DNA from: an uncultured Desulfosporosinus sp.
Lineage (GTDB): Bacteria > Bacillota > Desulfitobacteriia > Desulfitobacteriales > Desulfitobacteriaceae
Reading direction: 5' to 3'
Assembly (NCBI GenBank): GCA_927405585.1
Contig: CAKMJS010000116.1
Location: forward strand, 1-49,922
DNA: 49,922 nucleotides
The notes beneath the pieces are model-generated. The model was not told the origin of the DNA. It made no database searches and saw only the letters and a list, made by a program, of their open reading frames with translations. Within the stretch, counting starts at the first letter, position 1. Each line of letters opens with the position of its first letter. The position numbers were made by a program, and so were the translations under genes. Positions 9,583 to 41,588 of the stretch are shown here, piece by piece.

Positions 9583-10618
9583 GGAACTCCTCTTACAGCG
9601 TAGCGCCTGGATGGCGGAAACAGATTCTCCAGTCGTTATCAGTAGTCGAGTGCGATTAGCCCGCAACCTTGAGGATTTCCCCTTTCCCCATGTGCTGGGA
9701 CCAGAAGGTGCGGGTCAGGTTGAACATCTAGTTTCCCAAGTTCTAACGGATATTGAGGGGAATATTGGGCGATTGCGCTATATGTCTTTAACAGAGTTAA
9801 ATAGCATTGAGCGTCAAGTGCTCATTGAAAAGCACTTGATTAGTCCTAGTTTAGGCGGGTCAATCGGAGCACGTGGTGTGGCGTTGGCCACTGATCACCG
9901 CTTCGCTGTAATGGTTAATGAAGAAGATCATGTTAGGATTCAAGTGCTTTTGCCCGGGAATCAACTGTTGGAGACTCACCGTTTGGCAATGGAGTTAGAC
10001 GATGCCTTAGAAGCAAAGCTTGATTTTGCCTACCGTGAAAGCCAAGGATATCTCACGGCATGCCCTACAAATGTGGGTACAGGGCTCAGAGCTTCAGTTA
10101 TGGTGCATTTACCGGGTTTGTCGATCATGAAGCAGGCGCAACAAGTACTTGGAGCTCTGACGCGTTTGGGTTTAGCCGTCAGGGGGCTATATGGTGAGGG
10201 CTCACAAGCCTTCGGACACATGTTTCAAGTCTCCAATCAGATTACGCTTGGCAAAAGTGAAGAGGATATATTAACCCATCTGGATGCGGTAACTGGCCAA
10301 ATTGTAGAGCATGAACTTCAGGCTCGTAAACTCCTCCAAGACCAAATGCCGATGCTTCTAGAAGACAAGGTTTGGCGAGCTAGAGGAACGCTGCAAAATG
10401 CCCGACTTCTCTCTTCGGAAGATGCCATGCATTTGCTATCTCATGATCGATTAGGATCAGATTTAGGATTATTATCCAAGATTAAAGATAGCTTCACTTC
10501 GTTAATTGTTGATACCCGTCCGGGATGTTTGCAAAACATCCTTGATCGGGAACTTGACCCTAGTCAGCGGGATGAGGAACGAGCCAGATTGATTCGAGGC
10601 GCGATGCGCGAGGCGTGA
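9572..10618 (+). CDS. mcsB: McsB, protein arginine kinase
   Basis: Phosphorylates arginines on damaged proteins to mark them for ClpCP. The phosphagen-kinase-like fold shows SSRVRLARN, the NEEDHVRIQ segment and CPTNVGTGLR. Near the C-terminus RDEERA matches the phosphoarginine-binding allosteric motif RDxxRA. The protein has 348 residues. ATG 9572 follows AGAGGAAAAC and overlaps the end of mcsA. The last codons (RGAMREA) and the stop lie inside a heptamer repeat array, so the native C-terminus may have been altered by the repeat. Confidence 0.95.
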   Translation: MTHKELLLQRSAWMAETDSPVVISSRVRLARNLEDFPFPHVLGPEGAGQVEHLVSQVLTDIEGNIGRLRYMSLTELNSIERQVLIEKHLISPSLGGSIGARGVALATDHRFAVMVNEEDHVRIQVLLPGNQLLETHRLAMELDDALEAKLDFAYRESQGYLTACPTNVGTGLRASVMVHLPGLSIMKQAQQVLGALTRLGLAVRGLYGEGSQAFGHMFQVSNQITLGKSEEDILTHLDAVTGQIVEHELQARKLLQDQMPMLLEDKVWRARGTLQNARLLSSEDAMHLLSHDRLGSDLGLLSKIKDSFTSLIVDTRPGCLQNILDRELDPSQRDEERARLIRGAMREA

Positions 10619-10741
10619 GGCGCGAAGCACGAAGCACGAAGCACGAAGCACGATATACGAAACACGATATACGAAGTAAGGTACGGGCTTGCATGTATGA
10701 AAGCGTTGCTTTCATACTAATTCGAACCTCGCGCCTCGAAC
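10594..10741. repeat. Heptamer array with inverted arm, at the mcsB 3' end
   Basis: From about 10594 to 10680 the sequence is a run of degenerate 7-nt units such as CGAGGCG, CGAAGCA, CGATATA and CGAAACA. A hairpin follows at 10695-10717 (arms GTATGAAAGC, loop GTT). At 10721-10741 TTCGAACCTCGCGCCTCGAA presents the same units in reverse complement. The array covers the mcsB stop codon and fills the gap before clpC. Related arrays are at 19184 and 41555. Confidence 0.85.
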
Positions 10742-17349: not shown

Positions 17350-18516
17350 ATGATGATTCGCAACTTAATACGCGGGATCATCACTCTGTTAGTGGGGGCG
17401 TTGGGATTTTATCTTAGTTATTCATTTTTACGCCTCAATCTTTTAACATCCTTGGGATGGAATTTTTCTCCTGTCTGGACATACTCGGCTACGGTTATTG
17501 TATTTGCTATTATTGGATTTTTAGTTGCTCCGGTTAGTATTCGCTCTTTTCTTGCGTTAATGCGTTGGATGGATTCACGATTGACTGGGGTTCCAACACA
17601 TGATTTGATGAGTGGAGCCGTTGGGGGGATTATCGGACTTATTATTTCAAGTTTATTCAGTAATTCATTTCGAAACATTAATTTCTTTGGACCACTTTTA
17701 GCGGTGGTACTAAGCGTTTTCTTGGGTTATCTGGGTTTGACTATTGGAATGAAGCGGAAAGAGGATGTCTTGGGCTTCCTTAGTTTCCTTCCCAAATTTC
17801 GTGGAGATAAGACCGACAAAGCAGACAAACATAAGGAAAGTAAAGCGGACCCAGCTTTAGAGCGTGTTAATTTTAAAATTCTTGATACCAGTGTAATTAT
17901 TGACGGGCGTATTGCAGACATTGTCAAAACTGGATTTGTTGAAGGAGTATTACTCATCCCAAGTTTCATCCTTGAGGAACTTCGACATATTGCAGATTCT
18001 TCAGACTTGCTTAAACGAAATCGTGGCCGTAGAGGACTTGATATTCTCAATCAGATTTCTAAGGAAACGGCGATCAAAGTTCATATTCATGAGCAGGACT
18101 TTGATGATATCAATGAAGTTGACAGCAAACTAGTACGTTTAGGGCAAGTTTTAGGGTCGCCATTATTAACGAATGACTATAATCTCAACAAAGTAGCTGA
18201 ACTACAAGGGGTTAAGGTTTTAAACATCAATGAATTGGCCAATGCCCTTAAACCTATTGTTTTACCCGGTGAAGAGATGTTAGTTCAAGTGATGAAAGAG
18301 GGAAAAGAACCTGGCCAGGGCGTAGCCTATCTTGATGATGGAACAATGATTGTTGTCGATACAGGACGACGCTTTATGGGACAAAATGTCACCGTATTGG
18401 TAACGAGTGTTTTGCAAACGGCAGCTGGTCGTATGATATTCGCCAAGCCAAAAAGTACCCTTGAAAAAAAGCCGATGAGCCTACGTACTGTTGATGAGGT
18501 GGATGCCATTGGCTGA
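17350..18516 (+). CDS. YacL-type membrane PIN-TRAM protein
   Basis: Four N-terminal hydrophobic segments (about residues 1-130) anchor a cytosolic PIN nuclease-like domain. The acidic residues are visible in LDTSVIIDGRIAD, PSFILEELRH, NEVDSKLVRL and LTNDYNL. A C-terminal TRAM domain follows (PGEEMLVQVMKEGKEPGQGVAYLDDGT broken here only for length: key residues G, Y, D). The 388-residue size fits Bacillus YacL. Its nuclease target is not known. AAAGGAGGTG precedes tandem ATGs at 17350 and 17353. The stop overlaps the ispD start region, so the two are coupled. Confidence 0.9.
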   Translation: MMIRNLIRGIITLLVGALGFYLSYSFLRLNLLTSLGWNFSPVWTYSATVIVFAIIGFLVAPVSIRSFLALMRWMDSRLTGVPTHDLMSGAVGGIIGLIISSLFSNSFRNINFFGPLLAVVLSVFLGYLGLTIGMKRKEDVLGFLSFLPKFRGDKTDKADKHKESKADPALERVNFKILDTSVIIDGRIADIVKTGFVEGVLLIPSFILEELRHIADSSDLLKRNRGRRGLDILNQISKETAIKVHIHEQDFDDINEVDSKLVRLGQVLGSPLLTNDYNLNKVAELQGVKVLNINELANALKPIVLPGEEMLVQVMKEGKEPGQGVAYLDDGTMIVVDTGRRFMGQNVTVLVTSVLQTAAGRMIFAKPKSTLEKKPMSLRTVDEVDAIG

Positions 18517-19222
18517 GATAGGGATCGTTATTCCTGCAGCAGGTCAAGGCAAACGGATGGGAGCTGGATATAACAAGCAGTTTCTAACCTTGATGGGAGA
18601 ACCCATCTTAGTCCATACGGTTAGACTCTTTGAAAAATCCAGCTATGTTTCTGAAATTGTTATTGTAGGGGCGGAGAGCGATCTCCTTGTCATTAAAGAA
18701 TTAGTTTATAACCATAAGTTTGATAAGGTCGTGGCAATAAGTCAAGGTGGAGCGCAACGCCAAGATTCCGTTCGCTCAGGGGTACAAGCTCTCAGTCCCG
18801 CTATCCAACGGGTAGTGGTTCATGATGGGGCGAGGCCCCTTTTGACATTGCAACAATTTCATCAATTTTTAAGCGAGACCGAAGATTTCCCAGCTGCAAT
18901 TATGGGTATCGCAGTCAAGGATACCGTCAAGCGGGTTGACAGCTTGGGTAAAGTGCTCGAAACCCCTCCGCGTGAATGGTTGCGGGCTGTTCAAACACCT
19001 CAAATTTTCGACCGAGAGTTATTGGAGGAAGCACATCACCAGGCAGAATCTATGGGGTACTATGGCACGGATGACGCCGCTTTGATAGAATGGATGGGTT
19101 ATTCTGTACAGTTGGTTGAAGGTTCACAGGAAAATATTAAGGTGACCACGCCCGAAGATCTGTGGTTAGCTGAACGGATAATCGCGATGCGCGAGGCGCG
19201 AGGCGCGAAGCACGAAGTGTAA
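18509..19222 (+). CDS. ispD: 2-C-methyl-D-erythritol 4-phosphate cytidylyltransferase
   Basis: Third enzyme of the MEP isoprenoid pathway, joining MEP and CTP. The nucleotide-binding loop reads [11 protein letters not shown], with [21 protein letters not shown] and KDTVKRV further on. TTG 18509 is chosen because GAGGTGG is about seven bases upstream; it overlaps yacL by 8 nt. An earlier ATG at 18494 has no ribosome site. The C-terminal codons after AERIIA ([11 protein letters not shown]) are encoded by a heptamer repeat array, an acquired tail. ispF follows, as in many Firmicutes. Confidence 0.93.
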
Positions 19223-19319
19223 TGCGCGAAGTACGAAGTACGAAGCACGAGGCAAGAGGCAAGAGGCAAGAGGCAAGATGTGCGTTATGCGATTCGGCTC
19301 TCGAGCTTCGCGCCTCGCG
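19184..19319. repeat. Heptamer array with inverted arm, at the ispD 3' end
   Basis: Units such as CGAGGCG, CGAAGCA, CGAAGTA and GAGGCAA run from 19184 to about 19278. TCGAGCTTCGCGCCTCGCG at 19301-19319 is an inverted arm. The first 34 nt differ from the start of the mcsB array at a single position. The array encodes the last eleven IspD residues and reaches to within 10 nt of the ispF start. Confidence 0.86.
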
Positions 19320-19328
19320 AAAGGGGTG

Positions 19329-19814
19329 TTGATTATTAAAGTTGGAATTGGTTATGACGTACACGCCTTGGTTGAAGGGAGACCTCTGATTCTTGGAGGG
19401 ATGGAAATTCCTTATGATCGGGGTTTGCTTGGACACTCGGATGCGGATGTTCTAATTCATGCGATCATGGATGCTCTTTTAGGAGCCCTAGCTTTAGGCG
19501 ATATCGGGGCTCATTTTCCGGATCATGATCCTCGATACCGAGGAATTTCGAGTCTTGCTTTATTGGAGCAGGTCATGAAACTTATCCAAGCACAAGGATA
19601 TCGAATCGGAAATATGGATAGTATCATTGTGGCAGAGCGACCTAAGCTTGCCCCTTTTATCCCGCAGATGCGGATTAACCTTGCGCGTGTTATGAATTGT
19701 GATGAAATGTGTGTGTCTGTGAAAGCGACAACAACTGAACGATTGGGGTTTGCTGGCCGAGAAGAAGGAATCGCTGCCCAGGCGATCGTTAGTTTAGAAA
19801 GATTTGGAGGATGA
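19329..19814 (+). CDS. ispF: 2-C-methyl-D-erythritol 2,4-cyclodiphosphate synthase
   Basis: MEP pathway enzyme forming the cyclodiphosphate with loss of CMP. Zinc ligands are visible in GYDVHAL and [13 protein letters not shown], and the substrate segment in [12 protein letters not shown]. The length of 161 residues fits the family. The start is unclear. An open frame reaches ATG 19278, but those codons belong to the heptamer repeat. AAGGGG at 19321-19326 leaves GTG 19326 and TTG 19329 close by, and even ATT 19335 is possible, since homologues begin near I/M-K/R-x-G. I chose TTG 19329. Confidence 0.9.
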
Positions 19815-26775: not shown

Positions 26776-26851
26776 GCCGACGTAGCTCAATTGGTAGAGC
26801 AACTGATTTGTAATCAGTAGGTTGCGGGTTCGAGTCCCATCGTTGGCTCCA
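26776..26851 (+). tRNA. tRNA-Thr (anticodon TGT)
   Basis: The acceptor arm GCCGACG pairs with CGTTGGC with one G-T pair. The D arm is GCTC...GAGC, the anticodon stem ACTGA/TCAGT carries the loop TTTGTAA with anticodon TGT, and the T arm contains GGTTCGAGTCC. The CCA end is encoded (26849-26851). Confidence 0.97.
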
Positions 26852-26883: not shown

Positions 26884-26958
<75 letters not shown>

Positions 26959-41554: not shown

Positions 41555-41588
41555 GCGAGGTTCGAGGTTCGACAAGCGAAGTTCGATA
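41555..41588. repeat. Short heptamer array between fusA and tuf
   Basis: GCGAGGTTCGAGGTTCGACAAGCGAAGTTCGATA-type sequence, best read as CGAGGTT, CGAGGTT, CGACAAG, CGAAGTT, starting directly after the fusA stop. It is the shortest member of the family seen at 10594 and 19184. Only individual 7-nt units are claimed. Confidence 0.65.

Follow-up and report, generated by a model that had tools for sequence, protein, structure and literature searches.

The window analysed here, a stretch of 49,922 nucleotides, makes up contig C116 in a draft genome of 4.48 Mb whose nearest named relatives, judged by ispD, belong to Desulfosporosinus. It carries ispD (positions 18509 to 19222, plus strand; TTG start deduced from the reading frame; Pfam IspD, E = 2.6e-70), followed by ispF, which together with its GGGG ribosome site occupies positions 19323 to 19814 of the same strand (probable TTG start at about 19329; Pfam YgbB, E = 7.2e-70). 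A repetitive element at 19185 to 19319, in which an in-phase run of heptamers is followed by a middle part and then by a reverse-complement arm, covers the final codons of ispD, its stop codon and most of the gap up to ispF. The left arm (19185 to 19244, plus strand) is made of heptamers of the CGADGYD kind and crosses the ispD stop codon, with one interruption near it; the last codons of ispD read ATGCGC, GAGGCGC, GAGGCGC, GAAGCAC and GAAGTGTAA. The arm continues (19245 to 19278, plus strand) with four successive copies of a derived unit, GGCAAGA in phase, in which the C of position 1 is replaced by A (at 19251, 19258, 19265 and 19272); Tandem Repeats Finder gave a period of 7 and 4.9 copies for this part. 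After the middle (19279 to 19299, plus strand), delimited from the sequence, the right arm (19300 to 19319, minus strand) consists of reverse-complement heptamers that pair with the left arm, and it ends just 5′ of the ribosome site of ispF. The element is palindromic, with a predicted fold of -65.9 kcal/mol for 19170 to 19335 (z = -3.4), and the region from 19100 to 19400 gave no match to Rfam 15 covariance models at E values up to 1. Elsewhere, the window contains a T-box leader (RF00230, 21463 to 21677) upstream of the cysE-cysS region, a ribosomal protein L10 leader (RF00557, 29560 to 29692) and two tRNAs (26776 to 26848 and 26884 to 26955).

A second element (10595 to 10741, plus strand) has its left arm in the 3′ end of mcsB and its right arm at about 10722 to 10741, before clpC, and a third, short array (41556 to 41583, plus strand) begins 1 nt past a stop codon. 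A first-pass annotation of this DNA had stated that the ispD and mcsB arrays run into coding 3′ ends, which we confirmed for both genes (stop codons at 19220 to 19222 and 10616 to 10618, respectively), and that the two match in 33 of 34 bases, which is the score of the best ungapped 34-nt match (19183 against 10600). With up to three mismatches allowed, a 21-nt array stretch matched the window six times, always within these two arrays, and had no match in 100 shuffles. When arms only were scored, 3 of 136 sampled arm pairs (17 arms) reached 32 of 34, the ispD-mcsB pair being one of them, and a single pair out of 20,000 random five-unit arm pairs, drawn from the unit pool and compared in one register, reached 33. 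Since 32 of 34 is attained by three real pairs, the ispD-mcsB match is the best within a group of related ones and not unique.

The arrays are numerous outside the window. A four-unit pattern had 91 matches genome-wide, against 1 for the reversed control. Across the order, 44 of 73 genomes contained it, against three for that control. Within a sample of 389,260 bases, made up of the window plus 20 stretches picked for their arrays, we counted 89 chains of at least two strict units, compared with 7 in the reversed sequence. Chains paired within 150 nt were convergent in 38 cases, on the same strand in 15, and in the opposite order in none. The ispD array is thus probably one copy of a dispersed, noncoding palindromic repeat family of Desulfosporosinus and its relatives. 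Merging chains of at least three units gave 40 elements, which, with genes called by a heuristic caller, lay between co-directional genes in 38 cases, in convergent or divergent gaps in none, and elsewhere in two; this bias is significant by base pairs (p = 3e-4) but not by number of gaps (p = 0.07).

The placement of the elements relative to the neighboring genes bears on the proposal of the first-pass annotation that a mobile element aims at gene ends and delivers the C-terminal residues encoded by the AMREA stretch. In its favor, half of the elements (19 of 38) begin 0 to 7 nt past a stop codon, and GAM.EA tails of McsB are seen with heptamers. Distances from the element end to the next start codon were at most 24 nt in 17 of 38 cases and long in the others. 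Targeting of gene ends would look the same as tolerance of insertions between the stop codon and the ribosome site. Overlap with a stop codon is seen in just 4 of the 38, those at ispD and mcsB included; entry into coding sequence is therefore exceptional and not the rule. Because AMREA or AMRE is also native in array-free IspD tails, as described below, we consider it very improbable that the element was directed to gene ends with such a cargo.

IspD tails were compared over 29 genomes of the genus, in which 27 loci were readable (L049 and L053 were left out). In Desulfosporosinus fructosivorans 63.6F (G003, locus L032), IspD ends in AMREA directly before the stop codon, and its ispD-ispF gap has no unit chain. 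Other tails devoid of coding-end heptamers end in AMRES, AMREK, AMREV, AMRE or TMRET, and in three species only 24 nt separate the ispD stop codon from the first conserved codons of ispF. By these comparisons, AMREA is native to IspD and was not brought by the array, and ATGCGCGA of ispD is a native look-alike of the heptamer unit. The annotation had named array-free relatives with the same C-terminal residues as the observation that would speak against delivery, and D. fructosivorans is such a relative. Its remark that both arrays begin in AMREA codons is true for ispD and mcsB, but apparently for differing reasons. We also noticed by eye that another repeat, resembling GACAGGAGAACCGTCCCCTTGTCT, lies within the ispD-ispF gap of some relatives (L032, L035, L040 and L051), beside the heptamer arms or replacing them.

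The end of ispD reads ATGCGC and GAAGTGTGA in genome G027, versus ATGCGC, 21 nt and GAAGTGTAA in the window. This difference amounts to three units and seven codons, and it leaves the frame and the final residue unchanged. Which of the two states is older we can only infer, but the array has probably altered the IspD tail by about seven residues, that is, by three units, and the claim that it adds C-terminal residues is thereby borne out for this protein. The McsB tail was readable in 8 of the 20 stretches from relatives: GAM followed by unit-coded residues was found in G026, G027, G017 and G005, a SAM variant in G021 and NAM with one unit in G023; the tails of G011 and G019 were of other kinds. 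The GAM.EA sequence was seen only alongside heptamers (own genome, G026 and G017), the tail of G023 being similar with one unit. These tails show how variable C termini can arise in core proteins, IspD and McsB among them.

We defined the grammar of the repeat on 69 units that were themselves unconstrained, with two strict units on each side: 31 units in the own sample and 38 at other loci, mostly of relatives. Position 1 was C in 64 of 69 units, position 2 was G in 65, position 3 was A in 66 and position 5 was G in 66; position 4 was never C, position 6 was C or T in all 69, and position 7 was C in two. The consensus is CGADGYD, with C1, G2, A3 and G5 fixed, a pyrimidine at position 6 and free positions 4 and 7. 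At positions 4, 6 and 7, neighboring units in an arm agreed with a frequency of 0.57, against 0.42 after shuffling (sd 0.022), and an excess was also present at lag 2. In contrast, the two arms of one element agreed at 0.536, against 0.524 for shuffled or between-element pairs (p = 0.35; 25 rows, including two pairs of rows that share a right arm). The likeness of neighbors, together with the lack of it between the arms of one element, argues that arms lengthen by duplication of nearby units and that neither arm is a copy of the other. A snap-back origin, in which one arm would have been duplicated from its partner, was ruled out, as own arms did no better than shuffled ones at these positions; the hairpin is therefore not a maintained snap-back copy.

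These comparisons also bear on the possibility that the elements are selected intercistronic RNA hairpins that tune the stability or translation of operon mRNAs. Their location between a stop and the next start codon agrees with it, as does the folding of 18 of 18 chosen elements, each more stable than its 60 dinucleotide shuffles by over 2 sd (median z = -4.9), and the same gaps are filled in several species with differing units. However, the variable positions of the arms do not covary, several relatives have no element, and the content of the arrays changes fast. We regard selection for the hairpin as possible but less likely than not; a hairpin function may reside in the fixed core pairs alone.

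The unit dialect at position 7 differs between lineages. In the own sample, C took up at least half of the position-7 sites in 1 of 67 arrays. Such arrays numbered 1 of 26 in Desulfosporosinus nitroreducens 59.4F (G009) and 0 of 5 in G014, as opposed to 2 of 6 in G039, of another genus in the same family, and 4 of 4 and 5 of 8 in G046 and G047, of another family of the order; the loci behind this comparison are few. One tentative reading of the grammar, with its fixed core and free positions, its pairs of arms that do not mirror each other's variable positions, its occurrence at unrelated loci and its shifts between lineages, is that CGADGYD arrays are iterated candidate binding sites of a single trans-acting factor. 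Such a factor, either a transposase or a protein that binds mRNA, would coevolve with the arrays, and the repeat would be a bacterial element of the foldback type, its inverted ends being arrays of candidate sites. In one close species pair, 45 differences in 336 unit columns (with the row for the ispD stretch badly aligned) followed no clear pattern, and no sparing of the core positions was evident.

We sought 19 elements of the own genome in G003, G014, G002 and G011, from which 40 of 51 matches were retrieved. The orthologous gap was measurable for 17 elements, with extrapolated starts of the downstream genes, and for nine of them at least one relative had a gap of 46 nt or less. Element 16 is the clearest case: the own gap measures 233 nt, whereas those of three relatives, which have a similar spacer, measure 34, 36 and 41 nt, arguing by parsimony for a gain in the own lineage. 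Elements 8 and 18 were filled in each relative measured, with other units there. Where an element was present, the spacer found in relatives was partly lost. We saw no target-site duplication by eye at the orthologous gaps, where the relatives are too distant, and found neither a clean joint nor near-identical young copies. Speaking against free mobility, among the gaps of up to 2.5 kb scored over the mcsB-cysE region, chains of at least two units were confined to two, mcsB-clpC and ispD-ispF, and several species had them in each. Because elements recur in this way, some of the differences in presence may stem from loss. In a tree of PIN, IspD and IspF, the members of two sister pairs, G015/G024 and G021/G028, do not share the same ispD-ispF gap state.

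A subfamily with a common core provides further evidence of dispersal. A 90-nt core flanked on both sides by a heptamer arm, used as the query, had matches in at least 21 of 29 genomes, some to arms only, and core-spanning matches in at least 14. Identity in the aligned copies was 0.87 for the core (25 copies), 0.84 for one arm (21) and 0.82 for the other (25). Many copies of the core are at orthologous places, and the own genome has at least seven on six contigs among the matches listed. At one site common to seven species, the left arm comprises 1, 3, 3, 4, 4, 4 and 8 units. The differences in presence, the dispersed core and the lineage-specific unit preferences support copying, and not only local slippage. 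Thus, with elements present in one species and missing from the orthologous gap of another, and core-plus-arms copies dispersed, the mobile or copied element of the first-pass annotation survives in some form. Core-bearing elements are crowded within roughly 10 kb in several species (L158, G000:C170; L165, G009:C44; L184, G006:C6), and a murG-like gene was seen by eye in that region of the own genome.

The expansion by slippage that had also been proposed was upheld by the likeness of neighboring units, by the spread of the derived unit over four successive units at ispD, and by the range of 1 to 8 units in the left arm. The former two observations are also what one would expect of pure simple-sequence repeats that arose in place from a chance heptamer-like seed, such as GATGCGCGA of ispD, and grew by slippage with no mobility. 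The native unit look-alike in relatives that lack coding-end heptamers fits such an origin as well, and so do pure runs, for example (CGAAGCA)n, that are present in G009 and absent from its two close relatives. This explanation nevertheless leaves unaccounted for the convergent pairing (38 to 0), the grammar shared by unrelated loci, the lineage dialects and the dispersed core family, which makes origin in place alone rather unlikely. The place of one heptamer element of the own genome is taken in D. fructosivorans by a long, pure series of a different heptamer, about AAGTAAG, with some 16 units (L228, G003:C5:5000-6300).

Array content turns over rapidly between close species. At several orthologous gaps, G009 has units of the CGAGGTT type, versus the CGTGGTT type in Desulfosporosinus lacus (G006) and strain SRJS8 (G012). 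Differing unit columns numbered 144 of 454 between G009 and G006, 139 of 465 between G009 and G012 and 36 of 319 between G006 and G012, against 395 of 9568 overall in the flanks; at the chosen loci of this trio, arrays therefore differ by about 30% and flanks by 4%. G009 and G012 show no difference at L166 and L169, and a type B pattern search found both unit types in many species of the genus. We rejected the idea that close species had switched unit type wholesale: the 11 loci had been picked for perfect G009 units, so the data show fast turnover with an ascertainment effect and not a concerted switch.

The account that we favor, and regard as likely, is that of a palindromic repeat copied to operon junctions and then reshaped by slippage. 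Elements or their ends would be copied to new junctions at a low rate by a putative trans-acting activity, and would be tolerated there because they disturb neither a coding sequence nor a ribosome site. After arrival, replication slippage of whole units would lengthen, shorten and diversify the arms. At ispD, the array would have merged with the native look-alike GATGCGCGA, and a probable gain of three units (21 nt) would have given seven C-terminal residues. If transcribed, an element would form an intercistronic hairpin, and hence an effect on the mRNA like that of REP sequences would be plausible.

Cyanobacterial STRR heptanucleotide repeats are dispersed tandem arrays of heptamers, as are the repeats described here, and are built from another unit; convergent arms at operon junctions are not known for STRR. 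Dispersed heptamer repeats have been noted in distant bacteria with no account of their origin or upkeep. In the present genus, genomes of 29 species show the same gaps in filled, rebuilt or apparently empty form, which makes slippage in place, transposition and a selected hairpin testable. Among the literature matches listed, whose coverage is incomplete, no paper dealt with these repeats in Desulfosporosinus.

The closest precedent is in Xanthomonas and Nostoc, whose repeats GGGANTN and GGGGA(C/T)T, according to the available part of the report, have 7-nt units with fixed and free positions; most are intergenic and have aligned genes on either side, and many overlap a stop codon or lie no more than 50 bp from one (PMC4692102). 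In Xanthomonas they form convergent pairs (70 and 75 cases in two genomes), and 90% lie between the same genes in sister species; that part assigns them no function, and it mentions heptamer repeats for Calothrix (PMC4692102). The Desulfosporosinus repeats similarly have a 7-nt period with fixed and free positions (positions 1, 2, 3 and 5 at 93 to 96%), convergent pairs (38 to 0) and the same gaps occupied across species (mcsB-clpC and ispD-ispF). Unlike those units, CGADGYD has no G tract of three or more, and thus forms no G-quadruplex. The host is a Firmicute, and our repeats further differ from what that part describes in that they vary in presence from species to species, include a dispersed core family and show lineage dialects. 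As the anatomy is nearly the same with another unit, the Desulfosporosinus repeats appear, on the text available, to be a variant of an already known kind.

The TAACTGA direct repeats of marine Beggiatoaceae are likewise heptamers that lie between genes, also within operons, some over stop codons (PMC4679880). As far as the accessible sections of that article go, they differ in being mostly just upstream of start codons, in having one unit, with related heptamers rarely repeated, and in showing one inverted case only. The BrickBuilt MITE of Porphyromonas gingivalis is intergenic and has a 23-nt unit between a leader and a tail, with small inverted ends (PMC4596501). From the portion consulted, it shares with our elements a tandem repeat in an intergenic inverted-repeat element, but here the inverted ends are themselves the arrays. 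With respect to MITEs in general, the convergent arms are terminal inverted repeats, though they are arrays and not mutual copies, and there are dispersed related copies with filled and empty sites.

REP/BIME palindromes have units of 20 to 40 bp tagged GTAG or CGTC, of which, in the section at hand, the GTAG ones are tied to RAYTs (PMC3733652). Like them, the elements are palindromic, downstream of genes, arranged in opposed units and plausibly transcribed, features that would agree with REP elements moved by a RAYT/Y1 transposase. Y1 and array counts over the 29 genomes correlate weakly (Spearman coefficients of 0.34 for type A, p = 0.07, and of 0.44 when both types are counted, p = 0.017; uncorrected for kinship). 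By eye, however, the Desulfosporosinus arms are heptamer runs, unlike the 20- to 40-bp REP. Furthermore, Desulfosporosinus acididurans M1 (G001) has five Y1 matches and no arrays, G025 (79% complete) has five array matches and no Y1 match, and G015 has 73 array matches with two Y1 matches, which makes mobilization by such an enzyme improbable. An identical 26-mer, CGAGGTTCGAAGTTCGAAGTTCGAGG, is present at L147:2438-2486 and, among the matches listed, in G007, G009, G012, G013 and G015.
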